Source of the DNA: a virus
Length of the DNA: 64,000 nucleotides
Virus record (IMG/VR): IMGVR_UViG_3300037261_000033
Span: 1-64,000 of that record
Reading direction: 5' to 3' (one strand)
Every line of letters begins with the position of its first letter. Position 1 is the stretch's first letter. Made by a program: the position numbers and the translations under genes. The notes under the pieces were generated by a model, which made no database searches, was not told the DNA's origin, and saw only the letters and a list, made by a program, of their open reading frames with translations. Positions 7,027 through 55,552 of the stretch are shown here, one piece after another.

Positions 7027-10000
7027 TTACGCCGTCGCTCCGGTTTGAGAACGATACAACGAACCGCCGCGCCGCTTCTGCGTTTGGAGTGTCTGCAAGG
7101 CGATGTTACTCATCATCTGCGCTGCCTGCGCCCACTCTTCCTTAGTCATCCCGCCGCCGCTCGCGCTCGACCGCGCCGATTGACTTCCGTCCGCGTTATT
7201 CGTTACCGAGATACTGATACTGACGGGTGAGTTTCCTCCACTCATTCCCGCGCCGATTGCGGCCATCTGCCCTTGCGTGAACACGCCCTCGCCGGGCTGC
7301 GCGTTAATGGGCTGATTTACCGATCCGCCACCCGCGAGATATTGGAATCCGCCTTCCATTCCAACGATGCCGCCTGCATGAAACTTAGGCAGATGCGACA
7401 AATTAGACGGGCCTTGGAGAACCGGGCCAAAGCTGTTACCGCTGAATGTAGAACCCATTGAACGCTGCCCCGGTGTTTCTCGCGCCATGATCGCAGCGTT
7501 AAAGGCATCCGAGCCGCCGACGTTTGTGGATACCGTCGGGTCGCCCTGTTGCGGATGCGCGTTAGCCCACATTGAGGAATCGAACTTTCCGCGCGCGCCG
7601 AACTGCGCTGCGAAGACTCTCTCCTCATCATTTACAAAATTCCGGTTTGGATTGCCTCCATATCCGCCCCCGAGTAGAAAAGACTTAGTTGATGCGTCCA
7701 TGTTGGACGTGTAAAGCGATCCTGCTGACCAATCGTTAACGATTCCGGCCTGTCCCGTTCTGCTCCATACAGATTGTCCGGCATCGCCGCTCGTTCCGCC
7801 GCCCGGCGCAGCAGGAGACGGGCCGCCTAGAACCGGCTTGTCGGCATTCGCCGTGAATGAACCGTCGTTGTTCCATGTCCCTTGCGTGCCGTTAAACCAA
7901 TCGCGCCCCGGATTATTTTCGTATGTCGGGCCGTAATCAACGTGCGCGGCGAAATCTGGTGATGAAGGAATATTACCTAAGCTTGTATTACCAATATCTC
8001 GGAATGCTTGAATGTCCGGTTGACCGGAGCCGATTCCGCCCGTCTCGGTTGACTGAGGTGAATAGTCATTGTTGGCTCCGAAATCATAAAACGACGTATT
8101 CCCTGCCATCGTATTATCGTATGGGCCGTAAACGTCAGAACCGGACGGCAGTGAAAGGTTAATAGGGTCATAGCCGCCCTGTGGAATGCCGTAGCCTATT
8201 TGTCCTGAAATGCTATTCCCGGCCCAAAGCGTGTCTGCGTTACTAGCTACCCATGAGGCCGTCTCTCTGAGAAATGGATTTGTAGAAGTTCCGCCCGTTA
8301 GTCCCCACGGACTAACCGCCTGTCCGGTTGGCGGTTGAAAATCCATTGGCGGCCCCGGCTGATTCAAATCCATTTCTCCCGGTAATCCGCCGCCGTACGC
8401 GTCGCGCATTACCGCGTTGTAATGAGCTTGCTCTTCCGGTGTCATTCCACTGCCGGGTAAGAACCGTCTGTCACCCGGCGAAGTTGTCCACTCAATGTCG
8501 CTAGCTTTATGGACTCCGCTAGACTGACTGTTGCCGGGATCGTTCTGATTCCATACGTCCACTCTATTACTTAAACGGGGATTAGTGGTGTCCGTGAATC
8601 GCCCTGTAACTCCGCCTCTCGTTACTGTATCACCGTAGTGCGCTCCGTGAACTTGATCTGGTGATAAGGAGATGTCACCGGATTGATGGGGGTTCCCTTG
8701 ACTGTCGTAATACCCGTCACGCCACAGTAGGTATGGAAGACTGTTATGAGGTGCGTTTGGATTGCCTTCGTATGGCCCGAAGTTTGTGCGCTGAACTCCA
8801 CCGCCCGCCGTGAAATGAGCTACTCCCTGATTGTAGGTTGCGCCGCCCGTGCCGTGCTTCCAAGCGTCGAGAGCTTGAGTCCCGCCTGCGCGCGCTACGT
8901 CTTGCTTTGACAGCACGTATTCGCCGCCCGTTAGCATCGCTGGCACGTCATCCTTTGTCCCGCTGCCGCCATAGATAGGGCCACCCGTTGCCATGCCCGC
9001 GCCGCCGCCTGCACCTCCTCCACCTGATACGGTTGTGCCTCCCCCAACACCGAAGCCGCCCATCAAGAGCTTCAACAGATACTCGACCTCCATCTTGATG
9101 ATGATGCGCTCGATATCCTTGATGATCGACAACGCCATGTCAGTGAAGCCTTGCGAGACGCTCTTCGTTCCGTCGATGATGTCAGAAAGGCCGGTCGAAA
9201 TATCGTTGCTTAGTGCGTTCGCTATATCAGTGACGCCTTTCTCTACCGCTTGCTGCCAGTTACCGAACGCTGCTTTCGCTTTATCAAGTCCACGTAGGAT
9301 TGCATCAGTCGCGGATGCCGAACCATTCTTTATCGCCTCGTCAATCTCCTTGTTCTTCCGTTCTCTTTCTGCCTCTGCAACCGCTACTTGTCCGAGCGCT
9401 CCTAAATACGGTTCGAATTGAGATGGGTCGTAAAGTTCTTTGGCGGTAGAAGTCGTTAACTCCATGATGCGGCGCTCTTTTTCCGTCGTGTCCGTTACCT
9501 TCGATTCGATGATGTCGCGCTGCTGCCAGTAATCATTAATGATCGCTAGGTCTGTCTTGTATTTATCCCAGTCGCTGTCCTTAACTGGTTTTGCGATTTG
9601 ATTTAGCGGTGTATCACCGGCCTGCAATCCTCCGGCTCCAACCCCCGCCGTAGTTACATTAAACGGTTGTCGATTTAATATTCCGCCAATCAATTGATCT
9701 CCGAATGTTGGCGCTGGCTTCCAAATATTATCTAGCGCCTGTTTCAGTGTCGCCTTGTCCTGATCAAGTTTTGAAACGGCTCCCTTAGTGTAATCATCTG
9801 CTGCTTGTTTCCCGGTGTCTCCAGTTACGAACGCATTCCACATTCCCTTTAGCGCTCCCATAACCGGCGGCGTCTCATCCTTAACGGCTTTATCAAACCC
9901 GGCGCGCCAACCTTCCATCATGGTGTGCGTATCGCTTGTAAAGTCGATGCCTTTAATAATGGTGCTCCCTGACGCCGTAAACGCGCCGGAAATGGCGTCA

Positions 10001-11610
10001 TGGATAATAAGGCCAATCTCGTCCATTAGAACGCTCCACGCGGCTTTTAACGCAGTCTTCCAGCCGTCTTCCTTGGCGATTTTAGCGAAAGCGTCAACCA
10101 GTCCGGCCACTCTCTTTCCGGCTTCCTCCGCGAGCGGAATCATCCCAATAAGTTTATCGCTCGCTAGGGTAAGTAGTGTTACTAGAGAATTTGCTATAGG
10201 TGTACCGAACGTAACTTTTATTTGCTCCCATCGGTTCGCTAACTGTTCGGTAGCTCCCGGAAGCGTTTTCAGATAATCGGAAAGCGTTTTTCCAAACTTC
10301 CCGCCGCTCGCGGATGCGTCGAGCAGCGCCTTATTCACCATCTCGATGCTGATCTGCCCTTTCTTGAACATGGACTGTACTTGGTCTTGCGACTTGCCTA
10401 AGTCCATCATCAAAGCCAACAGGATTATCCGGCTCCCGTTCATCCCGCGCGTCATCAACTCCGTGCTGTTCATGATCGCTTGCTGCGTGCGGCTGTAGGC
10501 CGTTGTCATGCTATCGATGCTCTCACCGCTAGCCGCCGCGAGTGCTGCCATCGCCTTTAGTCGCGGAACTAAATTATCCGCGCCTGTGTTAAGAACAATG
10601 AGTTGTTCCGCGCCTTTTACGAACTGCGAGAAATCGAATGAACCTTGCGAATTGGTTAGGTCATGAATTTCTTTCAGTTTCGCCTCCGCAAGCGTGGCGT
10701 TCGCCACCATCTGAATGAACGGGAACTCCGCCTTTTGCTCCGCGCCCGCCGCCTTAATACTCTCCGTGAAAAAGTCCCACGCTTTTTTTACCGCGTAGAA
10801 CGTTACGGCTAGAACTACAAGCACGGCGATTAAAGCGGTTACAATTGCCGCCGTTCCCGCGAACCCGAGACCGCCCGTAACAGCACCATCATTAACGAGC
10901 TTTTGCGCTGCGGCTGCTTCCTTGTTCGCGGTCGTTAATTGCTGCTTCAAAGCTAACTCCTCCGCTTGCGCACCCCGCAATGCGTTGCTAGCCACGACCG
11001 CTTCGCCTTGCACTCTATTCAAATCCTTTTGTGATTTAGCCGCCGCATCAGATTCCGCAGAAAATACTCCAGAGCCTACTGCCGCTCCGGTAGCGGCGGA
11101 TGTAACCACGCGCTGTTCGCGTACGTTCATTGCCGCGATCTGCGCTTCCTCTTGCGCGATTTGGGTTGCTGCTACGGCACGCGCGTAAGCTTGCTCAATA
11201 GCGATAGCTGTGTTGCGCGCCGCCATCAGCCGCGTAGTAGCCGCTTCCATCGTCGCCGCTGAAATAGCTCCGGCGTTGAACGCGGTGTTCAATGCTTGCT
11301 GGCCCGCCGCTGTTTTGCTCGCATTCTGCGCCAGCCGTTCGATTTGAAGCCCGGCCCGCTCGAACCTTACGCCAAGCTCCGCCGCGCCGCCGCCCAACCC
11401 GCCCAACGTTTGTAGCATCCGCGTCGCGATGGACGACTGCCGCACCATCGAGCCAGTGAGCTTGTCGAAGCTGCCAGCGTGTCCCTCGACCGCTTGCGTC
11501 GCCCGCTGCGACGCGGATGTGATCTGGCCGAACGCTGAAACGGTATCCTGCGTCCCTTCCGGGGCGGCGATCCTAATTCCGTACGTTGCTACGTTAGCTT
11601 CTCCGGCCAT
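7027..11610 (-). CDS. H: tape measure protein
   Basis: A 1527-residue tape measure that sets tail length and is ejected on infection. The N-terminal third is Ala/Gln-rich and helical. A strongly hydrophobic segment lies near residues 250-275 (TAAIVTALIAVLVVLAVTF). A second helical region follows to about residue 865. The usual C-terminal motif 'TGGPIYGGSGTKDDVPAML ... GGEYVLSKQDV' begins at about residue 873. A second such motif (HAGGIVG ... PGEGVFTQGQMAA) begins near 1411. Between them lie about 500 residues rich in Gly, Asn, Ser, Pro and Tyr with little helix-forming character, which is unusual for a tape measure. A sigma70-like promoter lies directly before the start codon. Confidence 0.92.
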   Translation of the reverse strand: MAGEANVATYGIRIAAPEGTQDTVSAFGQITSASQRATQAVEGHAGSFDKLTGSMVRQSSIATRMLQTLGGLGGGAAELGVRFERAGLQIERLAQNASKTAAGQQALNTAFNAGAISAATMEAATTRLMAARNTAIAIEQAYARAVAATQIAQEEAQIAAMNVREQRVVTSAATGAAVGSGVFSAESDAAAKSQKDLNRVQGEAVVASNALRGAQAEELALKQQLTTANKEAAAAQKLVNDGAVTGGLGFAGTAAIVTALIAVLVVLAVTFYAVKKAWDFFTESIKAAGAEQKAEFPFIQMVANATLAEAKLKEIHDLTNSQGSFDFSQFVKGAEQLIVLNTGADNLVPRLKAMAALAAASGESIDSMTTAYSRTQQAIMNSTELMTRGMNGSRIILLALMMDLGKSQDQVQSMFKKGQISIEMVNKALLDASASGGKFGKTLSDYLKTLPGATEQLANRWEQIKVTFGTPIANSLVTLLTLASDKLIGMIPLAEEAGKRVAGLVDAFAKIAKEDGWKTALKAAWSVLMDEIGLIIHDAISGAFTASGSTIIKGIDFTSDTHTMMEGWRAGFDKAVKDETPPVMGALKGMWNAFVTGDTGKQAADDYTKGAVSKLDQDKATLKQALDNIWKPAPTFGDQLIGGILNRQPFNVTTAGVGAGGLQAGDTPLNQIAKPVKDSDWDKYKTDLAIINDYWQQRDIIESKVTDTTEKERRIMELTTSTAKELYDPSQFEPYLGALGQVAVAEAERERKNKEIDEAIKNGSASATDAILRGLDKAKAAFGNWQQAVEKGVTDIANALSNDISTGLSDIIDGTKSVSQGFTDMALSIIKDIERIIIKMEVEYLLKLLMGGFGVGGGTTVSGGGGAGGGAGMATGGPIYGGSGTKDDVPAMLTGGEYVLSKQDVARAGGTQALDAWKHGTGGATYNQGVAHFTAGGGVQRTNFGPYEGNPNAPHNSLPYLLWRDGYYDSQGNPHQSGDISLSPDQVHGAHYGDTVTRGGVTGRFTDTTNPRLSNRVDVWNQNDPGNSQSSGVHKASDIEWTTSPGDRRFLPGSGMTPEEQAHYNAVMRDAYGGGLPGEMDLNQPGPPMDFQPPTGQAVSPWGLTGGTSTNPFLRETASWVASNADTLWAGNSISGQIGYGIPQGGYDPINLSLPSGSDVYGPYDNTMAGNTSFYDFGANNDYSPQSTETGGIGSGQPDIQAFRDIGNTSLGNIPSSPDFAAHVDYGPTYENNPGRDWFNGTQGTWNNDGSFTANADKPVLGGPSPAAPGGGTSGDAGQSVWSRTGQAGIVNDWSAGSLYTSNMDASTKSFLLGGGYGGNPNRNFVNDEERVFAAQFGARGKFDSSMWANAHPQQGDPTVSTNVGGSDAFNAAIMARETPGQRSMGSTFSGNSFGPVLQGPSNLSHLPKFHAGGIVGMEGGFQYLAGGGSVNQPINAQPGEGVFTQGQMAAIGAGMSGGNSPVSISISVTNNADGSQSARSSASGGGMTKEEWAQAAQMMSNIALQTLQTQKRRGGSLYRSQTGATA

Positions 11611-13920: not shown

Positions 13921-14874
13921 TCACAATAGCGGAATTTGCGCATCTCTTAATACCTTGGCGCGCTTACTGCGATTCTCTGTTACAAATAATGCCTGTTGGT
14001 TGCTGAAATGGAAACAGCTTCTCTGATGCTGCGGTCTTGATAGATCAAAAAGGGCGCACGGTATGATGTGATCAATCTCCCAAACCGCGCCGTGATTCTC
14101 TAACGTCATCCCTGCCTTGAATGTACTTTCAAGGTAGATTGCGAAATTCTTAATCGAACAACCCAGTAGCTCGACCGTTTTCGCTGTCTTTTTAATTCTG
14201 CCTTTCAGCGCGCCGGTGATTCTGCTCCTTAACGCCATCTCGATTTTGAAATTAACATCCTCTCGTAATCGCTTTTGAAAATAGCGCTGCGCAATCTCGT
14301 TACGTCTGGCTCGATATTGTTCTGGATTTCTAGCACGCCAAATTTTGTTATACCTCCGGCATCGAGCGTTATGCTTCTCACGGCGGCTGGCGGCGCGTTG
14401 CTGCTTTAGGTCACTCTCCCATGTCGGATTGTCGATCAAGAATTGGGCCTTCTTGGCTTCCCGCCGCTCGCGAAGTTTAGCGCAATATTTAGCGTTGTTT
14501 TTAGCGATTCTTGCCCGGCGCTCAGACTCGCTTAGGATTCTGCGCGGAGGATTATTTTGCCGGTACCGCTCTCTACGTTTAACGAGATTAGTATCTCTGT
14601 TTTTGAGTCGCCCCTTGCGATCATAGGCGCGATATTGTTCTCTGTTTTGCGCCCTGTGCTGCCGTTGATACGCTGTTTTCTTGGCGCGATTCTTCTTTGC
14701 CGACCTGCGCGCCATCTCCCTGACTTTCTCTTTATTCTTCGCCGCCCACCGTTTATTTTCCGCCCTGTGTTCCTCGGCATGCGTCGCGCGATATCGACGC
14801 TTAGATTTTGAAATACGCTCTCTGTTTTTAATGCGGTATAACCGTATGTATTCGCGTTGCGCTTCCGTTTTCAC
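13921..14874 (-). CDS. HNH homing-type endonuclease, free-standing
   Basis: A 317-residue protein, GTG start at 14874. Roughly the first 200 residues are extremely rich in Arg and Lys (e.g. REYIRLYRIKNRERISKSKR), with YRxxN/REKxRxR repeats that probably contact DNA. The C-terminal 60 residues form an HNH nuclease domain: 'WEIDHIIPCALFDLS' (DH plus P), a Cys/His pair, 'FSNQQALFVTENRSK' and a final Lys. This is the arrangement of free-standing homing endonucleases in phages. It separates the tail tube gene from the upstream head-tail genes, consistent with insertion into the virion operon. Confidence 0.85.
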   Translation of the reverse strand: MKTEAQREYIRLYRIKNRERISKSKRRYRATHAEEHRAENKRWAAKNKEKVREMARRSAKKNRAKKTAYQRQHRAQNREQYRAYDRKGRLKNRDTNLVKRRERYRQNNPPRRILSESERRARIAKNNAKYCAKLRERREAKKAQFLIDNPTWESDLKQQRAASRREKHNARCRRYNKIWRARNPEQYRARRNEIAQRYFQKRLREDVNFKIEMALRSRITGALKGRIKKTAKTVELLGCSIKNFAIYLESTFKAGMTLENHGAVWEIDHIIPCALFDLSRPQHQRSCFHFSNQQALFVTENRSKRAKVLRDAQIPLL

Positions 14875-17325: not shown

Positions 17326-17787
17326 TCACGTCATTGCGTCTGATAAAAATTCCACCGTGCATCTGAACTGATCCCATCCGTCCGCCTGAATCCCGACGTA
17401 ACCCGGAACGGCTCGGTTGAACCGGAGAGTCTCGCCCGCAAGCACCACGGTCTGCCGTCCGAAGATTCTCTCCATCTCGTCGCTCATTTTCATTGCCGGG
17501 AGTGAACCCGTTTCCGCTGGACAGAATATTTGCAACCATACAACCCCAGTAACTCTGCGCGCCCTTGCATCAGCGCTAGTATCAATGCTCGTAGCGACCC
17601 TTATGCTCAACCTTCCCCACGCTTTATCCGTAGGCTGCTTCGCCCCCGTCGTCGCCCAAGCTTGATTCTCTGCTACGACCGGGTAAGCGGCTTGATTCCA
17701 TCCGCCCGTTGGCGGAGTACCGGAAACGAACGCCGCGCCGAACCGCGCATATATCGCCGCCTGAACTGTAGCGAGTGACGCGCTCAT
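17326..17787 (-). CDS. U: tail terminator protein
   Basis: A 153-residue protein that I assign to the phage tail terminator-like group (DUF4128/lambda gpU role). The N-terminal helix 'ATVQAAIYARFGAAF' is followed by 'WGRLSIRVATSIDTSADARARRVTGVVWLQIFCPAETG' and 'MSDEMERIFGRQTV', and the end includes a beta strand 'WDQFRCTVEFLSD'. Terminators stop tube polymerisation and join the tail to the head connector. It overlaps the upstream connector gene by ATGA. Confidence 0.75.
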   Translation of the reverse strand: MSASLATVQAAIYARFGAAFVSGTPPTGGWNQAAYPVVAENQAWATTGAKQPTDKAWGRLSIRVATSIDTSADARARRVTGVVWLQIFCPAETGSLPAMKMSDEMERIFGRQTVVLAGETLRFNRAVPGYVGIQADGWDQFRCTVEFLSDAMT

Positions 17788-18149
17788 TTCCGAAGCCCTA
17801 AAATATAAACCGCTTTCCCCGGCACCGGCATTACGTCAATGATGTTCCACTTCACTCCGTCGATTGTTAACCAATCGGCTTCGTCGATTCCCGATGGAAC
17901 GTCCGTGCCTTTGATTACAAACTGCGCATCGAACTGTGATGCCTGCGCTGTTTGAAGTTGCTTCGCGCGGTAGAAAATTCCCTCGACGCTCGCGGTTGTC
18001 CCCGTTGTCGTAGTAGTAACATCCGTAGCCCAATTGAAAGCGTTTACATTCGCAGTGTGCAGGATCGCGGTTGTCTTGGCGTTTCCCGCTAAGTCAAAAG
18101 CTAGCGCTGTCACGTCCGCTGAGAGTCCGGCGATATCGAGCGCCACCAT
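17784..18149 (-). CDS. head closure / neck protein candidate
   Basis: 121 residues. The sequence 'FDAQFVIKGTDVPSGIDEADWLTIDGVKWNIIDVMPVPGKAVYILGLRK' has the beta-barrel pattern of head-closure proteins (lambda FII/HK97-type), which form the ring between connector and terminator. Family identification is by pattern and position between adaptor and terminator, not by a strong motif. Confidence 0.6.
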   Translation of the reverse strand: MVALDIAGLSADVTALAFDLAGNAKTTAILHTANVNAFNWATDVTTTTTGTTASVEGIFYRAKQLQTAQASQFDAQFVIKGTDVPSGIDEADWLTIDGVKWNIIDVMPVPGKAVYILGLRK

Positions 18150-18153
18150 TGTC

Positions 18154-18729
18154 TTATGCTCTCGATGTCGGAATGAACCGTGTCCCTCTTCCGGTTGTGA
18201 CCGCTCCGAATGGCATCAACAAAAGGTAAACAACGTCGGGGATTATCTGACGCGCGTCCGCCGGGTCAAATGTTACCTGCACAGCGTTTTGTCCAACGCC
18301 AAATGATTTGATTCCTTTTCCCGGCGCATCCGCCGTCCTGTCGGATTTCAAAAGTAAAATCGCTAGTTCGCACGTCGCATCTTTGATTCCCTTTGGAACG
18401 CTCGCGTTGTCGTAAAATTCAGCACCCATTTGGTACGGGTAAAATCCATACGAAAACCCGAACCCAAACCCCACTACCGGGCGCGTAGATTTGATGACAT
18501 AGTTCCTCGGCCATCCGAGTGCCTGAGTGGTTGTCAATAGCTGGCCGTTCCACGTAGTGCATGCCTCGATGACGCGAGTTGCCATCATTAACGCCGTATC
18601 TTTGTCGCCTGCACTCGCGTTCGTCCAATCCGTGCTGAAAAGTCGAGCGGCGGCGTAGTCATCTCCCTCAGAAGCGTCCGCATAGGAATTGGATGTGCTC
18701 ATGCCGCTGCCATCTTCCAATGTCAACAT
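18154..18729 (-). CDS. head-tail connector adaptor (DnaT_2-like)
   Basis: 191 residues with the conserved start 'NSYADASEGDDYAAARLFSTDWTNASAGDKDTALMMATRVIEAC' and 'QALGWPRNYV'. This is the pattern of proteins often labelled 'DnaT-like ssDNA-binding' in databases but located in phage head-tail connector operons as gp6/gp15-type adaptors. The remainder (DATCELAILLLKSDR, 'IIPDVVYLLLMPFG') is typical of the family. It ends a few bases before the head-closure candidate. Confidence 0.75.
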   Translation of the reverse strand: MLTLEDGSGMSTSNSYADASEGDDYAAARLFSTDWTNASAGDKDTALMMATRVIEACTTWNGQLLTTTQALGWPRNYVIKSTRPVVGFGFGFSYGFYPYQMGAEFYDNASVPKGIKDATCELAILLLKSDRTADAPGKGIKSFGVGQNAVQVTFDPADARQIIPDVVYLLLMPFGAVTTGRGTRFIPTSRA

Positions 18730-18739
18730 AGCGTTATAT

Positions 18740-19057
18740 CTAACTCACTTTCATCATTGCATCAACGATTAAGCGTTCATTCGTGCCGTAGTTTATAGTT
18801 AATGTAAAATTGTAAACTCCGACGACTGGAATCTCTCCGTCGAGAATTTGCCATGCTATAACTCCGTTCGCAGCGTCTAAAACCGCGTCGGGCAATGTGA
18901 GGTTCCGGGAAATTCCCGGAGTACTTTCCGACGGTCGTTTAACAGCGAGATGTATTTGTGTAACGGATGCGAGCGGTATCGGCCCGGATGACAGAGTGAT
19001 CTCAACCGGGAAACCGAACATCCCGTGTCTAAATACTCCAATTTGTGAGACTGTCAT
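18740..19057 (-). CDS. BppU-type Ig-like virion protein
   Basis: 105 residues of beta-sandwich character. 'VTQIHLAVKRPSESTPGISRNLTLPDAVLDAANGVIAWQILDGEIPVVGVYNFTLTINYG' follows the pattern of the N-terminal domain of phage baseplate upper proteins (BppU_N-like), used to attach appendages to the virion. It overlaps the stop of the giant repeat protein gene by four bases, so the two are translationally coupled and may form one appendage. Confidence 0.65.
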   Translation of the reverse strand: MTVSQIGVFRHGMFGFPVEITLSSGPIPLASVTQIHLAVKRPSESTPGISRNLTLPDAVLDAANGVIAWQILDGEIPVVGVYNFTLTINYGTNERLIVDAMMKVS

Positions 19058-22000
19058 GGCCGTGGTTTCCCCGTCACTTTAACTCGCGTTGCGGCGTTCA
19101 ATACCTGTAACGATTTGTTCGCCGCGTCCAGTAAAATCGAAGATTTATTCGCCGCGTCTAGCGTCACTTTAACTCGCGTTTCGGCGTTCAACGCCTGCAA
19201 CGATTTTGTTGCCGCGTCTAGCGTGAACGCAATCGGCAAATCACTTTCTCTATAGAATCTGGTAACGATTGACGTATCTGAGGCGCTTCCTCTTTCTGTT
19301 ATCACTGCTGACCACAACGCCACTGTTGTTACGGTATCTGTAGCCGACGTCGCTTCTGAAAGCGTGCCGCCTCTTAGTATTCCAGTAGCGAGAACGTCCG
19401 CCGAGGTTCCCGCCTCCGTAATACTTGCGTTGAAGGTAATGCTGGCGTTTACCGAGTCGGACGCGCTAGCGGCTTCCGCGATAGCGGCAACCTCATTAGT
19501 CGTTTCAGAAAGCGTGTCCTGAGCGTTGGCAACCTCTGTGATCTCAGCCGCAAACAGAGCGCTCGTCGAAACATTATCGGTCGCACTTAGCGCCTCTCCT
19601 ATTGCAGCCGCGAAGAGAGCAGTAGCGGACATAGAGTCCGTCGCAGTCTCCGCTTCTGCAATCGCTGCTACGAGGAGTCTGGAAGCGCTTAGATTGTCCG
19701 TGGTCGTAGCAATCTCGTTGATAGTTACGGGGAGCAGCAGGCCCGCCGTCCGAGTGTCCGTCGCTCCTGTCGATTCGGATATTACAACTGGAAGTATTGT
19801 GCCAGCCGCCGTGGTATTTGCTGCGGATGCGGCCTCGGACATCGAAACCGGCAAGAGTGTTCCTGCCGTCAGGTTGTCTGCGGCTGAGCCTATTTCCGAG
19901 ATTGAAACCGGAAGGAGCGTTCCGGCAGTAGGCGTATCCGACGCGTTGGATGCTTCCGCCATCGTAACAGGCAGAATAGTAACCGCTGTAGGTGTATCAG
20001 TAGCACCGACAGACTCAACAACGACAACCGCCCAAATCACTGTTGCATCTGGCGCGTCCGTTGCATTGACAGTCTCGGTAAGCGTTACTGGCAATATCGT
20101 TCCAGCGCTTGGCGAATCAGTCGCCGTGGCCGTTTCAATAAGAGCTACGGGGAAGAGTATCGAAGCTGTTGGAGTATCCGTTAAATTGACCGATTCCGAC
20201 ATACTAACTAGAAGAATAGTTGCGGCAGTGGAAACGTCTGTTGCCGCGCCGGTCTCGGATATATTGGCGACAAATGTTGCTGTCGCGCTAGACGTGTCGG
20301 CGGCACTGGTCGCTTCCGTGAAGCTGACCGCTTCGGTGTCAATTTCTGATGGAGTATCTTGAGCGTTGGCAACTTCGGCAATAGCGCCTATAAAAAGAGC
20401 AGTTGTCGAAATGTTCTCGGTCGCGTTCGCTGACTCAATGATCGCAGATGCAAGCAGTGCCGTGGCCGAAGGGGTATCAGTGGCCGACCCCGCTTCCGAC
20501 ACAGCAACCGACAAAAGCGTCCCCGCCGTAGGGCTGTCGGTCGCGCTGGCAGTTTCGGCGAGAGATACCGGCAACACAGTTGCGGCGCTTGGAACGTCAA
20601 TCGCGCTGGCTGATTCTGTTATTGAGACTGGAAGAATAGTTGCGGCGGCAGGAACGTCCTGACCGGCCCCGGCCTCGGAAACGCTGACAGGGAATATGAT
20701 TGTAGCGCTCGCTGAATCGACCGCGCTACCCGCTTCCATGATACTCACTGCTTCAACGGCAACCTCAGATGGCGTATCCTGAGTATTAGCACCCTCGCCA
20801 ATGGCAACCGCAAATAAGGCGGTTGTAGAAACATTATCGGTAACGGCAGCGGCCTCGATTATTGCGGCTGCGAACAAGACGATATTGGACGGAGAATCGG
20901 TTGCGCTTCCAATCTCGGATATGGCAACCGGGAATAAGGTTCCCGCAGTTGGCGTGTCCGAAGCTACGCCTGATTCCGCGATTGAAACCGGGAGTACCGT
21001 CGCGGCACTTAGCGTATCTAATGCACTGGCCGCTTCTGATATGGCAACTGACAGAAGCGTTGTTGCGCTAGGAGTATCCGTTGCGGAGCCGGTCTCAGAT
21101 ATGCTGACGTTAAACGTAGCCGCCGCGCTTGGTGAGTCTAATGCGCTCGCAGTTTCCGCTATAACAGCGGTTTCAATAGCGACCTCAGACGGTATATCTA
21201 AAGCGTTGGCAGCTTCGACGACGGTAGGCGTCCAAATTGCTGTGGCGTTAAGTGTATCAGTCGCCACGCCTGTCTCGGACATGGTAACAGATGCAAAATA
21301 GGTCACCGATGGACTGTCTGTTGCGGTTACCGCTTCCGAGATCGCCGTCGGTGTGAGAATCCCCGCTGATGGCGTGTCCGTTGGAGAACCAACCTCGGTG
21401 ATAGTCACCGGCGAGAGGAATGTTGCAGACGGAGTATCTACCGCCGTAACGGATTCTATAACAGCAACCGTAGCTAAATATGTCACTGCCGGAGAGTCCG
21501 TGGCCGTAGCCGCTTCGGTGAGAGCGGCTAACTGAATTACGGTTGCGGTTGGCGTGTCCGTTGCCGTAGCGGATTCGACGAGAGCGACCACTGCAATGAA
21601 TGTCGCAGCGGGTGTATCACTCGCCGTAGCAGTCTCGACCGTGGCGACTACGGCTAGGTAGATTTCGGACGGGTTATCCGTTGCGCTCGCTATCTCGGCG
21701 ATAGCAGCAGATGCAAGGATTGTCGCGGATGTACTGTCAACGGCGCTCGCGGATTCTGATATTGTAGCAAACTGGACGGTTCCCGCTGATAGAATCTCGA
21801 TGGCTGTTGCAGCTTCGGTTATTGCAACTAGCGCGAGGTAGGTCGCAGAAGACGTATCAGTGGCCGTAGCGGCCTCGGCTACGGCGACCACCGCGAGATA
21901 AGTATTGGACGGAGTATCCGCCGCCGTGCCAGCTTCGGTGATAACTACTAGAGCAAGAAATGTCGAACTTAGTGTGTCAGTGGCCGCACCTGCCTCGGCG

Positions 22001-22392
22001 ATAGCAACTAACGCTAAGAATGTTGCGCTCGGCGTATCAGTCGCGCTAGCAGCTCCCGTGGTGATGGCTGCAAATAGAGCGGTAGTAGACGGGGAATCTG
22101 TCGCGCTCCCAGCCTCCGAGATGATAACCGCTGCGAGAACTGTCGCGCTCGGTAAGTCGGCGGCTGCCCCCGCCTCAGTAATAGTCCCGACATAAATCGC
22201 GGTTGTGGATGGACTATCCGCAGCCGCGCCCGACTCGATTAACAGAGACGGAGAAAAATCCGCCAACAACCTCGGCTTAACTATCTGTTGAGCTAGCGGC
22301 GCAACATCGCTAAGCATTTCCGGCCCGATGCCGGTAATGCCGCCAGTCGTGCGGCTACTTTGGCCGGGGATGCCGCCGACCAGCGAGGGCAT
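19054..22392 (-). CDS. giant 20-residue-repeat virion protein
   Basis: 1112 residues: a 50-residue non-repetitive head (PSLVGGIPGQSSRTTGGI...), exactly fifty consecutive 20-residue units, and a 62-residue tail. Consensus unit: I-S/T-E-A-x-S-A-T-D-T-P-S-A-T-x-L-x-x-V-A. Glu at unit position 3 and Asp (or Glu) at position 9 are almost invariant. There is no Cys or Lys and almost no Arg in the array, so it is strongly acidic. No unit is shortened or lengthened. A regular beta-solenoid or extended fibre is the likely shape, which is inferred. It is flanked by connector genes on one side and small virion proteins on the other, so a head, neck or whisker-type appendage is plausible. No enzymatic motif is visible. 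Confidence 0.75.
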   Translation of the reverse strand: MPSLVGGIPGQSSRTTGGITGIGPEMLSDVAPLAQQIVKPRLLADFSPSLLIESGAAADSPSTTAIYVGTITEAGAAADLPSATVLAAVIISEAGSATDSPSTTALFAAITTGAASATDTPSATFLALVAIAEAGAATDTLSSTFLALVVITEAGTAADTPSNTYLAVVAVAEAATATDTSSATYLALVAITEAATAIEILSAGTVQFATISESASAVDSTSATILASAAIAEIASATDNPSEIYLAVVATVETATASDTPAATFIAVVALVESATATDTPTATVIQLAALTEAATATDSPAVTYLATVAVIESVTAVDTPSATFLSPVTITEVGSPTDTPSAGILTPTAISEAVTATDSPSVTYFASVTMSETGVATDTLNATAIWTPTVVEAANALDIPSEVAIETAVIAETASALDSPSAAATFNVSISETGSATDTPSATTLLSVAISEAASALDTLSAATVLPVSIAESGVASDTPTAGTLFPVAISEIGSATDSPSNIVLFAAAIIEAAAVTDNVSTTALFAVAIGEGANTQDTPSEVAVEAVSIMEAGSAVDSASATIIFPVSVSEAGAGQDVPAAATILPVSITESASAIDVPSAATVLPVSLAETASATDSPTAGTLLSVAVSEAGSATDTPSATALLASAIIESANATENISTTALFIGAIAEVANAQDTPSEIDTEAVSFTEATSAADTSSATATFVANISETGAATDVSTAATILLVSMSESVNLTDTPTASILFPVALIETATATDSPSAGTILPVTLTETVNATDAPDATVIWAVVVVESVGATDTPTAVTILPVTMAEASNASDTPTAGTLLPVSISEIGSAADNLTAGTLLPVSMSEAASAANTTAAGTILPVVISESTGATDTRTAGLLLPVTINEIATTTDNLSASRLLVAAIAEAETATDSMSATALFAAAIGEALSATDNVSTSALFAAEITEVANAQDTLSETTNEVAAIAEAASASDSVNASITFNASITEAGTSADVLATGILRGGTLSEATSATDTVTTVALWSAVITERGSASDTSIVTRFYRESDLPIAFTLDAATKSLQALNAETRVKVTLDAANKSSILLDAANKSLQVLNAATRVKVTGKPRP
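19073..19240 (-). repeat. 90-bp direct repeat in the C-terminal coding part
   Basis: The segments beginning GTCACTTTAACTCGCGTT at 19073 and 19163 on the plus strand repeat each other with a 90-bp period. They encode two imperfect 30-residue repeats (LNAxTRVKVT / LDAAxKS...). This repeat is different in length and composition from the 60-bp array it follows; it is basic rather than acidic. Confidence 0.7.
19243..22242 (-). repeat. array of fifty 60-bp (20-codon) tandem repeats
   Basis: Residues 51-1050 of the repeat protein divide into fifty 20-residue units without any insertion or deletion, 3000 bp in all. Units differ at many codons and are not near-identical copies, so the array is old and kept in register by selection. 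A longer cycle of seven units (420 bp) is visible within units 22-33 and again in units 43-47. Confidence 0.9.
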
Positions 22393-22845
22393 TTAATCCT
22401 CCCAGACCGCGTAGTAACGGAACAAAGAAGGAGCTACCGCAACAAGATTCGCGATACAGATTTCTCCGATTGCAACGCCATTACCGACAATGAGCGGGTC
22501 ATCCGCAGGCCATGTCCAGATAAAGCCAGCGCCAATCGCGGCAGGCAGAACTATCTGCCGAAAGAAGTTTGCTGGAATCACCGGCACAGTTCCCCACGAT
22601 GAGACCAGCAGTGTTCCTGATGCCGGAGCGAGCGGATGTTTCGCTTGTCCAGCGATAGTGGTGCCGGGCGTAACAGAAATAGTCGTGGCTCTCGCTAATC
22701 CGAGGAGCGTCGATGTGGCGGCGATGAGCGTTACGCCCAACTCGCGCAACGCGCAGCGTTCAGTCGCAGGCGCGCGAATCGCGACGAGCGGCGCACCCGC
22801 GCTGGCAGTGACGAGCGTAGAAATATTGCCTGCTTCGAACCTCAT
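22393..22845 (-). CDS. small beta-rich virion protein
   Basis: 150 residues, Ala/Val/Gly-rich and almost entirely beta-predicted ('GAPLVAIRAPATERCALRELGVTLIAAT', 'ASGTLLVSSWGTVPVIPANFF', 'VAIGEICIANLVAVAPSLFRYYAVWED'). It starts nine bases after the stop of the upstream gene and abuts the giant repeat protein. Similar single-domain jelly-roll-like proteins decorate capsids or necks in many siphophages. I do not recognise the exact family. Confidence 0.6.
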   Translation of the reverse strand: MRFEAGNISTLVTASAGAPLVAIRAPATERCALRELGVTLIAATSTLLGLARATTISVTPGTTIAGQAKHPLAPASGTLLVSSWGTVPVIPANFFRQIVLPAAIGAGFIWTWPADDPLIVGNGVAIGEICIANLVAVAPSLFRYYAVWED

Positions 22846-22853
22846 GGCTTGGC

Positions 22854-23450
22854 TTACAGCGATGTGGAATACGAAACTTGGAGCGTATCGCCTGCGGCTA
22901 CTATTTTATCGCCGCCCGTGAACAATCCCACCGACCATAGCTTGCCGTTCACGTCCGCAATCGTGGAAACTGCTCCCGTTCCAAAGATGATAAATACGCC
23001 TTTGACCGTACCGCCAGTGGTGATGATCGGAAAACTTAGCGCGGCTGAAAGCGCCTTTGCGCCCGCAGCAGCGGCACTCCATACGCAGGTTTTGCGAGGC
23101 GTGGTGTAAAGCGGGAAGTTAGTGGAGCTTCCGGCTTCCTTCCATCCGTTTGTGCCGTTGATCTGTGCGGCTGTGTCACCGACTGCGACAGCCGTGTAAC
23201 CTACCGAGCTAATAAGGCCCATGAACGGGCCGACCACGGCCACGTTTGCTCCAAGGGCGCAGTCCAACATGAGATTCTTACCCTCGGTGCAAACTATGTT
23301 GTCAATTGTGTCTTCCCATTTCAGGTTTCCATCCTTATCGATGCAACGGAAATGGTAGTGTCCTTTCGCCTTGCAAATTTCGTCGAGCCGTGAGCCTCGA
23401 AGGACTACTGCACCAGTGGATTCTTGAGCGGCTGCGTTTTCAGTCTTCAT
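22854..23450 (-). CDS. virion structural protein, decoration/tail-fibre type
   Basis: 198 residues. The stretch 'RCIDKDGNLKWEDTIDNIVCTEGKNLMLDCAL ... GPFMGLISS' follows a pattern recurrent in phage structural proteins ('DG.lkW.d...NlV...GkN.lLd..l...... lGLi'). The C-terminal half is beta-rich ('KLWSVGLFTGGDKIVAAGDTLQVSYS'). Members are annotated as minor capsid or tail-associated. It lies at the start of the block leading to the repeat protein. Confidence 0.65.
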   Translation of the reverse strand: MKTENAAAQESTGAVVLRGSRLDEICKAKGHYHFRCIDKDGNLKWEDTIDNIVCTEGKNLMLDCALGANVAVVGPFMGLISSVGYTAVAVGDTAAQINGTNGWKEAGSSTNFPLYTTPRKTCVWSAAAAGAKALSAALSFPIITTGGTVKGVFIIFGTGAVSTIADVNGKLWSVGLFTGGDKIVAAGDTLQVSYSTSL

Positions 23451-24648: not shown

Positions 24649-25722
24649 TTAACCTCCGAGGTTGTTGTGACGAATCCGCACCATTGGCACGTTCTTCGCT
24701 TGGAAGACGCGCAGCCAGTTCGCCTGATTTGCCAGTTCCGCGTTCGTCGGGCTGATCCCGGCCATCGCGTAGTCCAAGAACTTCAAGCCGCGCGGGTGAA
24801 GGATCATCCGGCGACGGTTGATGAAGATGTTCTGCCCGGCCAGCGACTCACGCGCGCGCTCTGCCGCCCATGTGCTACCCGGTGCCGCACCGTAGATCGG
24901 CCCGTCCATGCTGCCGACGCCATAACCGAAAGCGCCCGCCGCAAACAGGAAGGTCGAGTAAACGTTGCTCGGACTGGATGTGCCGCTCTCGATGTCAACG
25001 GTCATCGTGTCGTCGAGAATGACGCGCTTCCCGCTGAACGTACGGATCAACTGGCCTTGCTCAGCCGCAGGCACGAAGACGATCTCGTTCGTCTTCTCCA
25101 AGGCCGCTTCCGTCTTGGAATGCATGATGACTGCCGTCAGTTTCTCCTTCGCATCACCGAGCAACTGCTTCGCGTCGATGAACGTGTCCAGCGTGAGGTA
25201 GTTCGCGCTCGTGAAGCTTGAACCGCTGGTCAAGTGAATGTCGGACGAGTTGCCGGACATCGAGGCCGCGCCGAACACGCCAGCGAGAGTCGAGAGCGCC
25301 ATTTGCTGCAAACGCTCCGCCCAATACTTCCCGAGCAGTTCGCCGAGCGCCGTCGCCGGGTCGCTGTTCGAGAGGATAGCCGCCATGTCGTTGTGGCTCC
25401 ATGCCTTCGCGCGGTTGTGGATGACGGCTTTCTCGTTCGAGCTTGTCATCTTGCCGGTCGTCAGCGAACTCGTGTCGCTGATAACTTCGTCCGCGCCCGT
25501 CAATGCCTGCCAGAAGGGCATGGACGTAAACTGTCCGCCTTGCCCAACCGTATCCGCCGTCAGATTGACATCGAAGCCGACATCGGCTCGCGCATCCAAC
25601 TGCGGGTCGGGCGCGATGATGCCCGACGTAATCAATTCCGAAAGGACTGCGGTCTGCTCCACGGCGTAAGGGAGGAACGTCTCCGGGATCAGCGCCAAGT
25701 CCGCCACTAATGTCTCAGCCAT
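24649..25722 (-). CDS. major capsid protein
   Basis: 357 residues, directly downstream of the scaffold-type gene. Features fitting an HK97-fold coat protein are the early 'IPETFLPYAVEQTAVLSELITSG' helix region, 'GFDVNLTADTVGQGGQFTSMPFWQ', the long central helix 'LLGKYWAERLQQMALSTLAGVFG', 'AVIMHSKTEAALEK' and a C-terminal 'FLFAAGAFGYG ... INRRRMILHPRGLKFLDY'. The last part is the usual P-domain/end motif ('...HP.G..w') of this coat-protein group. The leader contains a strong hairpin and GGAG. It should be the most abundant head protein. Confidence 0.88.
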   Translation of the reverse strand: MAETLVADLALIPETFLPYAVEQTAVLSELITSGIIAPDPQLDARADVGFDVNLTADTVGQGGQFTSMPFWQALTGADEVISDTSSLTTGKMTSSNEKAVIHNRAKAWSHNDMAAILSNSDPATALGELLGKYWAERLQQMALSTLAGVFGAASMSGNSSDIHLTSGSSFTSANYLTLDTFIDAKQLLGDAKEKLTAVIMHSKTEAALEKTNEIVFVPAAEQGQLIRTFSGKRVILDDTMTVDIESGTSSPSNVYSTFLFAAGAFGYGVGSMDGPIYGAAPGSTWAAERARESLAGQNIFINRRRMILHPRGLKFLDYAMAGISPTNAELANQANWLRVFQAKNVPMVRIRHNNLGG

Positions 25723-26812: not shown

Positions 26813-27072
26813 CGATTTTTTAAGAGCGTGCTTCGGACGAACTTCTGCCACCGCGACCACTTGTCTATGAACCAACAGTAAGTCCGGCTGCGCCCGTACA
26901 GTTGTATGGCCGCTTTCGCGAAAGCTACGCGGATCGCCCACTTGATAATGTATCGCTCCGCGTTAGCGATTCTATCCTTCTCCGTTTCACCTTTGATATG
27001 GACGTAATGTGCGTTCGGCCTTTGCGCGTCCGCGATCAACTTCATCGCCCAAGATGGAACTGTCTCGCTCAT
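26809..27072 (-). CDS. conserved-type small phage protein
   Basis: 87 residues from ATG 27072, which overlaps the HNH gene stop by ATGA. It contains 'ADAQRPNAHYVHIKGETEKDRIANAERYIIKWAIRVAFAKAAIQLYGRSRTYCWFIDKW', an amphipathic helical protein with a Tyr/Trp/Arg-rich end. It has no recognised domain. The upstream in-frame start at 27102 would lie inside the HNH gene and is less likely. Confidence 0.55.
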   Translation of the reverse strand: MSETVPSWAMKLIADAQRPNAHYVHIKGETEKDRIANAERYIIKWAIRVAFAKAAIQLYGRSRTYCWFIDKWSRWQKFVRSTLLKNR

Positions 27073-27755
27073 ATTTGAACGTGCTTCCACCGTAGCCCGC
27101 AAAGTATGTTTTTAATCGCGGCCTTCGAAACTCCGAATCGTTTCGCGGTTGATATTATAAACCCGCGTTTGCGGGTCAGCGCCGCCGTCTTTATCTCACG
27201 GACATTTTCTTCGGTGAGCTTCGCGTTGTAACGCGCCTCTCCGTATTCTTGATTGCGCCTTCCCTTCGCGTTGCAATCCGCGTTATTTTCAGCCTGTGTA
27301 CCGAGAAATAAATGCGTCGGGTTCACGCATGACGGGTTATCGCAATGATGGCAGACGTGTTTATCCACGTTCCCGTAAACAATGAACGCAGCGAATTGAT
27401 GCGCGCACCATCTCCGTTCGAAAGCCCAAAAACTTCCGTAGTTATATGACGGATTACTACCCGATGCTCCCGCCATCCAAGGCCAGCATTCATCCGATTC
27501 CTTAATATTAACGCGAGACCAAAAATCCTCTATGAATTGCTCAGGTTTCTTTGTTTTGATGCAACCGCATGAACGTGTTCTTCCCATTGAAAGGCGGCAT
27601 CCTAGAATAATTACGTTGGCACCGCACTCACATTGGCAGCGCCATAAGTAATTACTGCCTTGACGCCCAACAGTTTCAAGCACGGTAAGTCGTCCGAAGA
27701 TTTGATGCGTTAAATCTTTGAAATTGCCGTGATGCTTAATACCAAATCCAGCCAT
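27069..27755 (-). CDS. HNH homing endonuclease with zinc-ribbon DNA-binding head
   Basis: 228 residues. The N-terminal about 60 residues ('FGRLTVLETVGRQGSNYLWRCQCECG ... RSCGC') form the Cys-rich DNA-binding module common in phage homing endonucleases. The middle is an HNH_3 nuclease core: 'HVCHHCDNPSCVNPTHLFLGT', then 'NNADCNAKGRR'. The C-terminus has a helix-turn-helix-like 'STAKRFGVSKAAIKNIL'. It overlaps the preceding gene by 20 bp. It is related in its core to the HNH gene at 42340-42804. Confidence 0.88.
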   Translation of the reverse strand: MAGFGIKHHGNFKDLTHQIFGRLTVLETVGRQGSNYLWRCQCECGANVIILGCRLSMGRTRSCGCIKTKKPEQFIEDFWSRVNIKESDECWPWMAGASGSNPSYNYGSFWAFERRWCAHQFAAFIVYGNVDKHVCHHCDNPSCVNPTHLFLGTQAENNADCNAKGRRNQEYGEARYNAKLTEENVREIKTAALTRKRGFIISTAKRFGVSKAAIKNILCGLRWKHVQI

Positions 27756-45134: not shown

Positions 45135-45416
45135 TCAGTTGATCGAAACGTGCAATTCCGCGTAGCAAACCCAACGACGCAGCCCTTGAAGCGGTTCCGC
45201 CTCTAGCACTGTTGGGCACGCGAACCAAGCATCTCGCCGCGCCCCTGCCTCATGTATTATTCTATCGCCCTCTTCCCGAAACGGAATATCTGTCGCCTCT
45301 AATTCTTGCTCGGTTTTGCACCGCTTACACGTTACGACTTTCCCCGCCCACCAATGGCGCGCAGTTACTGGCGGTCTCTCGCCGTTTTTCAATTGTTTCA
45401 TCTTATCGTCTTTCAC
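45135..45416 (-). CDS. small Cys-containing protein
   Basis: 93 residues; GTG 45416 overlaps the HerA-like stop, and ATG 45401 (KQLKNGERP) is an alternative. 'VTCKRCKTEQELEATDIPFREEGDRIIHE' holds a CxxC, but no second pair is close, so zinc binding is uncertain. Function unknown. Confidence 0.55.
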   Translation of the reverse strand: MKDDKMKQLKNGERPPVTARHWWAGKVVTCKRCKTEQELEATDIPFREEGDRIIHEAGARRDAWFACPTVLEAEPLQGLRRWVCYAELHVSIN

Positions 45417-47239
45417 TGATAAAACTCTTCACTGATTCGTATTGGTTGGCCGCGCGTGATTAGTTCCAGTGTCCGCAGTCTGGAAAGTGAATTGTTGAAT
45501 CCACCGCTGCTAGCGGAGTAACCCGTTACGGCTCCAATCTCATCCGCCGTCATTCCGTTCGGATAATTCGCGGCGAGCGTTTCGAGAATTGTCCGCTCGC
45601 ATTTGCTGCTCCGCCCAAGCCAGTGATCGAGCAATCCTTGACCTGTCGGTAATGGCTTCCAATCTCCGAGCGTTGAAAGTCCCCCCTCTGTAATCTGAAT
45701 TGGATTGCCGCGAGTGATGCAATTTCCAAACGGTTTATCATCACTCGGGGCTGATCTTAGCCTACTTAATGAGTTATTGAAGCCGCCCGATGTTCCTGAA
45801 TAGCCAGTAAGGATCGCTACCTGAGTCGAGGATCGGCCTTGTGGATATTGCGCCAGCGCGGAGAGAATTGTTCTTTCGCACTTTGACAGTCCATTTTCTA
45901 TTCTCGGGACAGTAACGCGCGGTCGAGACGGCGGCGTAATCGTGAATGGCTCATTATGTCGGACGTGCACCGCTATTGGAATCTCTTCATCGATCATGCC
46001 TTTCATGACCTTCACCGCATTAGCTGCGTCGGCCCTTAACTTTTCAAATGTTTTCGTGCGCGCCTCGATTATTCCTTGCACCTTGCTCATAGCCGATTGC
46101 ACGGCGCTGTCTATCGCTGCCTTTAGTTCTTCCTGCGGGACTTCCTTGAAGTCGTGAGCGATAACGTTGACTAAGATTTTCATAGCTTGTTGAAGTGCTC
46201 TTTTAGTCCGGCGTAGTTCTTCGGCTTTCGGAGCGGTTTCGATTGATGGTGACGGCTGGCGCTGCGCCTTTTCTAACTGCCGCCGTAATACCGTGAGTTG
46301 CTCTTTTAGTTCGCGCGGATCATTTGCTTTTGCTTCCTCGATAACTGAGGCCAATTTTGCGGTGACTTCGGCTAGGTCAACGTCGGCCCAACTTCGGTTG
46401 TTTACCTTTTTCTGTAACTGCGGCGGCGCGAAGGAATCGAATGTCTTGAATATCGGAAAATCCGTTATGATCGGGCCGAAGTCTATTTCAGGTGACCAAA
46501 TCCACGCGCTTCCGCGCGCTAGTCGCGCCAGCGTGTCGAGAACTTCTTTCCCTTGTTCCTTATCACCGCATCCCTTTATCCAATCTTCAACCGCGCCGCG
46601 ATCTGCCGCGTGAATTACGCGCATCGCGACTAACGTTTCGCACGAAGTCAGCGTGTCGTTGTGAACTTTCTGCGGTCGCTGCGATGCGATTAAGCAAACG
46701 ATCCCAAGTCCGCGCCCCTCACTCAATAGTCGATTCGACCAATGCAGGCATTTGCCCGCTTGCGGGTCGAGAATCTTACCCTTCGGAGCGAAGTTATGGA
46801 ACTCGTCACCCACGAGATAAAGCTCGCCGGAATTGGCGTTGAAAATGCCGGACGCGAAGTCAATCCAGAATTGCACCATGTGCGCAGTCATCCAGCCACG
46901 AAAACCGATGATCGCTGGCCGGTTCCCGCTCGTTATCAGTTCGGCTACGTGCTTGCCCGACTGCTGGTTAATCGGAACGTCTGTCGCGTTTTCCTTTTTG
47001 AAATCACCGAAAGTGATAATTGGATAGCCCGGCCCTTTGCCGTCCGCCGATGCTTTCAGTCCCCACCAATCTCCCTTTGGGTCGATGATGCAGACGCGCT
47101 TCCCGCGCGATAGTAAGTGCTCGACGATATGGCGAAGCGCGGATGACTTACCCGCCCCGGTCTTACCAAGTACGACAAGATGTTGATCTAGTATCTCGTC
47201 TGGAAAGCATAACTTCACCGCGCGTGGCGTTACGCTCAT
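45413..47239 (-). CDS. HerA/VirD4-like ATPase with two winged-helix repeats
   Basis: 608 residues. The N-terminal ATPase of the DUF87/HerA group has Walker A 'LGKTGAGKSSAL' (24-35), 'VCIIDPKGDWWGL', Walker B 'ELYLVGDEFHNFAP', and 'GIVCLIASQRPQKVHNDTLTSCETLVAMRV', the typical translocase sensor region. A coiled coil spans about 270-330. The C-terminus holds two near-identical winged-helix repeats starting at about 452 and 545 (SKCERTIL..., each with GGFNNSLSRLR). It is a DNA-translocating ATPase. The wHTH pair may bind DNA or regulate transcription. Confidence 0.85.
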   Translation of the reverse strand: MSVTPRAVKLCFPDEILDQHLVVLGKTGAGKSSALRHIVEHLLSRGKRVCIIDPKGDWWGLKASADGKGPGYPIITFGDFKKENATDVPINQQSGKHVAELITSGNRPAIIGFRGWMTAHMVQFWIDFASGIFNANSGELYLVGDEFHNFAPKGKILDPQAGKCLHWSNRLLSEGRGLGIVCLIASQRPQKVHNDTLTSCETLVAMRVIHAADRGAVEDWIKGCGDKEQGKEVLDTLARLARGSAWIWSPEIDFGPIITDFPIFKTFDSFAPPQLQKKVNNRSWADVDLAEVTAKLASVIEEAKANDPRELKEQLTVLRRQLEKAQRQPSPSIETAPKAEELRRTKRALQQAMKILVNVIAHDFKEVPQEELKAAIDSAVQSAMSKVQGIIEARTKTFEKLRADAANAVKVMKGMIDEEIPIAVHVRHNEPFTITPPSRPRVTVPRIENGLSKCERTILSALAQYPQGRSSTQVAILTGYSGTSGGFNNSLSRLRSAPSDDKPFGNCITRGNPIQITEGGLSTLGDWKPLPTGQGLLDHWLGRSSKCERTILETLAANYPNGMTADEIGAVTGYSASSGGFNNSLSRLRTLELITRGQPIRISEEFYQ

Positions 47240-54025: not shown

Positions 54026-55552
54026 CTAAATTCCGCCTACCGTGATGCGGCGCGTCTTGCCCATCTTGAATTGTATCCCATAACGACAACCATCGAATGC
54101 GTGGTCAATCGCGTTATCGCTAATGTCTTCCGGGTCTTTTTCATCGCGGAGCAACTGCGGGATTGTTTCTATGGCGCTCTTACAACATTCGAAGAAAACA
54201 AGACCGGGCCGGTCATGAAGTGGTTTGCCATTCGCGTCTAAGATTTGTTTCCCGTTTGGCTTCCCGTTCTCCGTCATGATCGGCGCGTCTTTATTCGGAG
54301 CGAGTAGCCGATGAAAGTTCTGCACGCCAGCAACGCGGCTGCCGGGCCATTTCTGCGCCGGTGTCCATTTGCATCCGAGTCGGTTCATCTGATCGCCACG
54401 TGTGATTTGCTTCTGTCCTTCCTTATCGCTTTGTCCGATGTCCGTGAAAGCGTTGTTATCGTAAAGTCCCTTCAAAGGTTCTTCGTTGTAAAAGGTGTTG
54501 AGTTTCCCGTCCGCGTCGCGCGTTCCGTCTTGCAGAATAATCTGCTTGTCCCTTTCCAGCACGCGGCGCGCGATTTCCTCTGGTAACATTCCTTTGCGAT
54601 ACAGTTCGTCGATGATGTAGATCGTCTTGCGTTCCGGGTCTTGCGTAAGCCAATAGATCGCCGTCTCCGCCGCGTAGCCGTCGTCTCCGCCCCTCCATAG
54701 CGTCCAACCGTTCGGTATGGCAAAGCCGGAGTGAACGTGCCACGGCCTGCCGTGCATCGTTGCGCGCCAAACCTCACCGAACATGCTCCCTGCGACGACA
54801 GACCAATCACCTTCCTTCATCGCGCGAACGAGTACCGCGTCACCCATGCCTTCCAAGCGGTCGAGATAGTTCGGATCGTTCCGCAACAGCGCCGGGTTGT
54901 CCGTATTCCGCGCCGGGATAAACACGCGCTTCATGCCGCCTTCTTTCGGTTCCGTCTGCACGACGTTATACGCGCCATGATCAATGAACGTTTTCTTTAC
55001 AAATGCGTGCGAGATTCCGCCCGGATTCGCGCCGCATAGGATTCTCGGGAAAACTCCTTTCATGTGTTTCGGCGGTATCCAGTTTCCAAGTCGCACTGAG
55101 CCCCGGAGATAGCGGTACTGTTGCTCTGAGAATTGCGTTAGCTCATCGAGTCCTAGAAAATGAATTTCCGGCCCTTGGTATTTCGTAACGTGCCGCTCAA
55201 GCTGTAGATGGTTCAAGAAGATGCGCGCGCCGTTCCAAAAACTGATTTGATGCGACGTAATCCGCGCGTGCTGCCGTTGCACCATCTTTGCAAGCATCAC
55301 GTGGAAGCTGGTCGGCCCTTCCATGTGATTCGCTTTTAGATCGGGATAGAGACGCCGGAAAAGGTAACACTGCAATCCCGGCGCTTCGATACAGCACATG
55401 CACATTGCTGCGCGTATCAAAAAACTTTTCCCCGGCCCCTTCGCTCCGCCGAAGAGCACTTCGTTCGCCTTGGTGGTAAACGCTAAGGTCTGTTGCGGCC
55501 AGAGTGACCAATCAAAGTCATACTCTTCGTTGACGACTTCAACTTGTGGCAT
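54026..55552 (-). CDS. terL: terminase large subunit
   Basis: 508 residues. ATPase: Walker A 'FGGAKGPGKSFL' (34-45), Walker B 'IHFLGLDELTQF' (130-141) and the coupling motif 'CGANPGG'. The nuclease domain starts near 'WTLWRGGDDGYAAETAIYWL', with acidic residues that fit the RNase-H-like fold. It cuts concatemeric DNA and powers packaging into the portal. It overlaps the small-subunit candidate gene by 14 bp. Confidence 0.9.
   Translation of the reverse strand: MPQVEVVNEEYDFDWSLWPQQTLAFTTKANEVLFGGAKGPGKSFLIRAAMCMCCIEAPGLQCYLFRRLYPDLKANHMEGPTSFHVMLAKMVQRQHARITSHQISFWNGARIFLNHLQLERHVTKYQGPEIHFLGLDELTQFSEQQYRYLRGSVRLGNWIPPKHMKGVFPRILCGANPGGISHAFVKKTFIDHGAYNVVQTEPKEGGMKRVFIPARNTDNPALLRNDPNYLDRLEGMGDAVLVRAMKEGDWSVVAGSMFGEVWRATMHGRPWHVHSGFAIPNGWTLWRGGDDGYAAETAIYWLTQDPERKTIYIIDELYRKGMLPEEIARRVLERDKQIILQDGTRDADGKLNTFYNEEPLKGLYDNNAFTDIGQSDKEGQKQITRGDQMNRLGCKWTPAQKWPGSRVAGVQNFHRLLAPNKDAPIMTENGKPNGKQILDANGKPLHDRPGLVFFECCKSAIETIPQLLRDEKDPEDISDNAIDHAFDGCRYGIQFKMGKTRRITVGGI

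Follow-up and report, generated by a model that had tools for sequence, protein, structure and literature searches.

The window, 64,000 nucleotides from a linear IMG/VR viral record 92,202 bases long, encodes a long repeat protein that is probably the extended beta-rich shaft of a virion-carried fibre, attached to the head or neck and adjustable in length. Its gene occurs once in the record. The repeat family is widespread, with relatives in more than 100 uncultured phages among the matches listed. Repetitive fibre shafts are known in phages as a kind; the libraries searched appear to contain no description of this repeat family, its scale or its linked partner.

The repeat protein and its predicted fold

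The gene lies on the minus strand, which the earlier note had not stated, and its product has three parts.

19054..22392, minus strand: repeat protein, 1112 aa (proposed fibre shaft); open reading frame with translation, ATG start
22243..22392, minus strand: N-terminal head, residues 1-50, a candidate anchor
19243..22242, minus strand: array, residues 51-1050, 50 units of 20 residues (60 bp each)
19057..19242, minus strand: C-terminal tail, 62 residues, five 10-residue repeats

The division of residues 51-1050 into fifty exact units was confirmed: the units are gap-free, with zero indels. Autocorrelation of the protein peaks at lags 20, 40 and 60 (0.40, 0.37 and 0.36, respectively) and does not exceed 0.15 at other lags. 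Column counts over the 50 units agree with the conserved positions proposed earlier. Position 3 is Glu in all units except one (49/50, Gly once) and position 9 is Asp in 47 (Glu in two, Asn in one). Hydrophobic residues prevail at position 1 (I/L/V/M/F in 48/50) and position 16 (L/I/V/F in 45/50), and V (30 units) or A (13 units) usually fills position 19. No column rose above 23/50 in 2000 shuffles, for Ala or Thr as the commonest residues, which is far below the real conservation. The array is dominated by A, T and S, has no Cys, no Lys and six Arg, and carries a net charge of about -106.

The proposal that constant unit length reflects selection is borne out by the codons, which are randomised beneath the conserved residues. 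Glu3 is encoded by GAA in 26 units and GAG in 23, and Asp9 by GAT in 25 and GAC in 22. Pairs of units with the same residue use an identical codon in 33.1% of cases, against 32.2% expected. This agreement indicates that synonymous sites are saturated and the residues kept, and hence that the units are old and their residues under selection. A higher-order repeat of seven units also runs through the array (19243-22242), as seen when the DNA is compared at a distance of seven units (z = 6.7 for identity), with 25/32, 27/34 and 21/28 among the best unit pairs. This period suggests duplication of unit blocks. The tail has short repeats of its own that had gone unmentioned (LDAATKSLQA, LNAETRVKVT, LDAANKSSIL, LDAANKSLQV and LNAATRVKVT). 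By inspection, no similarity was found between the N-terminal head and the N-termini of relatives, and no signal peptide is evident in its 50 residues. The repeat protein has no match in Pfam, PHROG or PDB sequences, and no receptor-binding domain was found for it.

Structure prediction of consecutive units, which the earlier note had suggested, started from alignment A2, whose 70 in-register rows each cover ten units of the window protein or a relative. The five AF2 models range in pLDDT from 63.8 to the best, 83.4. The model shows regular strands, three per unit at positions 19-3, 7-9 and 12-16, so that a three-stranded coil is predicted for each 20 residues. Over residues 1-12 of the unit profile, conservation falls on the odd positions (1, 3, 5, 7, 9), and Ser/Thr prevails at the even ones. 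This alternation indicates beta structure independently of AF2, and such structure is likely in the array. Similar folds are predicted for uncharacterised Caudovirales proteins (E 9e-5, TM 0.82). The likeness to beta-solenoid families (left- and right-handed beta-helices) lies in the predicted three strands per 20-residue coil; the repeat protein differs from them in its conserved acidic ladders and in the lack of a significant match to PDB folds (best E 0.19, TM 0.11). AF2 gives confident but unrealistic beta-solenoids for repeat sequences, and internal charge stacking is a warning sign (PMC11795689). The solenoid model is therefore taken with caution. By the alternation pattern, Glu3 and Asp9 would share a face with the hydrophobic residues, the kind of stacking flagged in that study. 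The earlier description as an acidic solenoid or fibre stands for the acidic fibre as the best reading, and a monomeric solenoid is not established by the model.

Relatives and variation in unit number

Relatives were sought in viral contigs with a hand-made DNA pattern spanning three consecutive units. At least 119 stretches matched, and the repeat protein is thus not unique. Unit-profile scoring recovered about 1,700 units among the matches listed, with the common consensus [IV]-x-E-x3-A-x-D-x-[VIP]-S. We define the family by tandem 20-residue units with E3, A7 and D9, all of which the window protein has. Among the matches listed, unit number per relative runs from 3-4 to about 51, contig ends having cut some of the proteins. 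The count of exactly fifty, which had been singled out, is incidental. Homologues whose unit length or number varied freely by out-of-register indels had been named as evidence against the proposal. Number does vary freely, but the units stay in register: among the matches listed, nearly all follow one another directly at a length of 20 residues, and additions of one or two residues per unit are rare. The clearest series comes from the FGISSFAAAPFASLAGAF lineage, where near-identical flanks enclose arrays of 300, 480, 580, 660 or 821 residues, which shows that array length changes by whole units. The C-terminal cap in complete members of this lineage is mostly 37 or 59 residues long, the two forms differing by two 11-residue repeats. 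Relatives begin with a short hydrophobic or Trp-rich N-terminus that is shared within a lineage, and many end in 11-residue Trp repeats, where the window protein has its tail of 10-residue repeats.

Other searches were less productive. A tblastn search of phages with the repeat protein returned nothing, probably owing to the low-complexity filter, and peptide patterns from the repeat protein or the major head protein found nothing in viral contigs, probably because they were short. Alignment of 80-residue segments yielded no stretch conserved enough to serve as a search query. In relatives L008, L099 and L112 the arrays match two PHROGs to which no function is assigned, phrog_12240 and phrog_18723 (best E 1e-5 to 6e-9); the window protein itself matches neither. 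The three-unit pattern also hit 115 stretches in genome contigs, only about 5-7 of which score as real arrays (L222, L133, L225, L128 and L158; probably L170 and L209). The rest were rejected by unit scoring as mostly chance matches. Locus L018 too proved a chance match, and unit-profile scoring recovered no units from L071 or L100. L158, from a Thaumarchaeota MAG, is a 1992-aa open frame with consecutive 20-residue repeats (ETVTASDNLSTSVAKNATLA) of the same E/A/D spacing. It looks like a cellular surface protein, and the 20-residue repeat is therefore not limited to phages.

Partner genes and genome setting

The repeat gene lies in a structural block, and its main neighbours are as follows.

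24649..25722, minus strand: major head protein, SPP1 gp13 type (phrog_247, E=9.8e-82; tblastn)
22854..23450, minus strand: partner protein, 198 aa (phrog_8123), candidate anchor or adaptor from linkage and a PDB match
22393..22845, minus strand: 150-aa protein, encoded between the partner and repeat genes; L101 has it next to the module too
18740..19057, minus strand: small 105-aa protein (Ig-like?) directly downstream of the repeat gene (weak He_PIG match, E=0.046)
18154..18729, minus strand: head-tail adaptor Ad1 (phrog_477, E=2.9e-28)
17326..18149, minus strand: head closure Hc1 and tail terminator (phrog_161, phrog_179)
7027..11610, minus strand: tape measure protein, 1527 aa, a separate length ruler (phrog_339, phrog_24)

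The structural order is portal (39239), major head (24649), 198-aa protein, 150-aa protein, repeat protein, 105-aa protein, Ad1 (18154), Hc1 (17784), terminator (17326), Neck1 (14940), a phrog_290 minor tail protein (12653) that is possibly the tail tube protein, tape measure (7027) and J (146). The repeat gene is thus close to neck genes, as the earlier note had placed it, with Ad1, Hc1 and the tail terminator nearby. A tape measure, J and neck genes within one block make a long-tailed phage (siphophage) that encodes a tape measure and a tail-tip J of its own the most likely source of the DNA. HNH-endonuclease-like genes, recognised by sequence motifs, occur within the block at 13921-14874 and 27069-27755. 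Two genes match terminase large subunit families, at 45413-47239 and 54026-55552 (phrog_2666, E 3.5e-21; phrog_979, E 1.1e-35).

The 198-aa protein is linked to the repeat gene well beyond the window. Of 105 loci among the matches listed, 66, the window included, have a homologue close to the repeat gene and on its strand; in the window the phrog_8123 family gene is upstream. The homologue is upstream in 65 of these 66 and adjoins the repeat gene in 32 by simple gene calls. Nineteen of the 39 loci without a homologue have at least 1.5 kb of upstream sequence, and the others are short there. Some of the 66 loci are closely related, and a k-mer filter leaves 36 distinct homologues. The family matches PDB 26la_U/44nx (E = 1e-17), a chain identical to KPP25 ORF007 over the aligned stretch. 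Products of the genes beside it are present as well, ORF006 in 44nx and ORF005 in 26gp, 26la and 44nx. Judged by this match, the family has a member in the solved particle assembly of a KPP25-type podophage. The AF2 model of the partner has a pLDDT of 86.5, and Foldseek returned weak neck or connector matches only (Sf14, Bas63; E 0.06 or worse), to which no weight is given here.

Other genes accompany the module. A cluster of putative tail-fibre proteins (MALVLADRVRETT type), which we take to be such from inspection of their sequences, is found in 65 loci among the matches listed, in most cases immediately following the repeat gene. Upstream, conserved products of about 219 aa and 138 aa, named by inspection only, are common. 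The 105-aa protein type may be a third member of the cassette; the 105-aa protein itself has a weak hhalign match (probability 49%) to the L006/L050 group. A small gene of 100-120 aa, possibly Ig-like, directly follows the repeat gene in L006, L029, L050, L051, L065, L086, L087 and L115 too.

Proposed role, alternatives and known systems

In the proposed shaft, each 20-residue unit would add a single layer or turn to a repeating beta structure, and unit length would thereby be fixed by the fold. Recombination would add or remove whole units or unit blocks, changing shaft length in fixed steps of about 0.5 nm per unit if the shaft is a solenoid, or about 24 nm for 50 units. Attachment to the particle probably falls to the first 50 residues and the 198-aa partner, perhaps joined by the 105-aa protein, and the short-repeat tail would cap or tip the shaft. 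Such a fibre would help the particle to reach or hold the host surface and would be distinct from the tail-tip J protein. Since the repeat gene stands after the major head gene and before that of the head-tail adaptor, attachment to the head or neck is the most likely arrangement. A bolder version, which we consider improbable, has Glu3/Asp9 ladders inside the shaft or between chains binding divalent cations, so that stiffness or assembly would depend on Ca or Mg and reach would be tuned by single coils in a new and very common fibre-shaft fold.

The site of attachment is the point on which another reading comes closest. The protein could be a tail-associated or side fibre of the tail or baseplate, with a gene that stands among the neck genes through an accident of genome order. 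Putative tail-fibre genes sit beside the repeat gene in many relatives, and in KPP25-type phages the partner homologue adjoins a head-closure/tail-hub gene and occurs together with ORF005 in PDB entries. However, the cassette lies among portal, major head and neck genes in both the window and L050, far from J, and a tail position is possible but doubtful. The fold itself can also be questioned. Composition rich in A, T and S, a net charge of -106 and the bias of AF2 towards solenoids for repeats (PMC11795689) would all suit an acidic linker or brush of the capsid or neck that is flexible and mostly disordered, in which E3 and D9 would be kept for charge spacing and not for a fold. This is unlikely, because a near-invariant unit length in about 120 loci and the odd/even alternation would not be expected of it, and because the array consists of natural diverged repeats, a case in which prediction methods agreed (PMC11795689).

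Two further readings would remove the protein from the fibres altogether. Display on the cell surface during infection or lysogeny, or another non-virion function, is brought to mind by the same 20-residue repeat in the apparent surface protein of the thaumarchaeal MAG. It is very unlikely for a gene that lies inside a structural block and is linked to a family with a virion member, and whose product has no evident signal peptide in its 50-residue head by inspection. The earlier note had considered a length-setting element, and a long array of units of constant length would be in keeping with a ruler for a part of the head or tail. This suggestion found no support: unit number varies widely among relatives and within one lineage, and the phage has a separate tape measure gene, leaving a ruler barely conceivable. 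The repeat protein was also rejected as the tape measure itself, since it has no PHROG match and variable unit number, and the match to phrog_339/24 belongs to the other gene.

If the fibre-shaft reading is true, many uncultured phages carry a large unnamed family of modular shafts in cassettes of two or three genes, and its recognition would annotate many 'hypothetical' genes. The in-register length variation would provide a natural series for relating fibre reach to adsorption, and the solved partner-family structures, 26la and 44nx, could reveal the attachment site.

Several known systems resemble the proposed shaft. PhiCh1 and its relatives have repeat-containing tail fibre proteins (PMC4284463; PMC6471424), reported to vary in length (PMC4284463). 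In tblastn searches from relatives, the ORF34/ORF36 tail fibres of PhiCh1, PhiH1 and ChaoS9 were matched through a tandem D-x3-A-x-D-x-V motif, and by inspection the E/D-x3-A-x-D-x-V form is contained in the consensus of the window family. Their unit is 10 residues long instead of 20, they have an invertible gene pair with a recombinase whereas the record here has a single gene and no recombinase among the neighbours read, and they are reported to carry a galactose-binding C-terminal domain where the window protein has its 62-residue tail of 10-residue repeats with no Pfam match. The head fibres of phages 7-7-1 and phiCbK are long and flexible and make the first contact (PMC12796354); as capsid fibres, they are likened to the proposed shaft by description. 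The plan of the relatives, a Trp-rich N-terminus, a repetitive shaft and a Trp-repeat C-terminus, is found in the hypothetical protein WJZ48131.1 of phage DSL-LC04 (L125:1150-2280) and in PhiVS14 of Vibrio phage VS-ABTNL-3, which follows the same plan and adjoins a 198-aa family member. Terminal Trp-rich segments common to relatives are present in both phages (L125:1150-2280 and L242:6972-7958). Their shaft repeats differ, being of the VTGVQATGxVG and SLGSKSxM types, respectively, and the combination of shared Trp-rich ends with different shaft repeats suggests that shafts are exchangeable.
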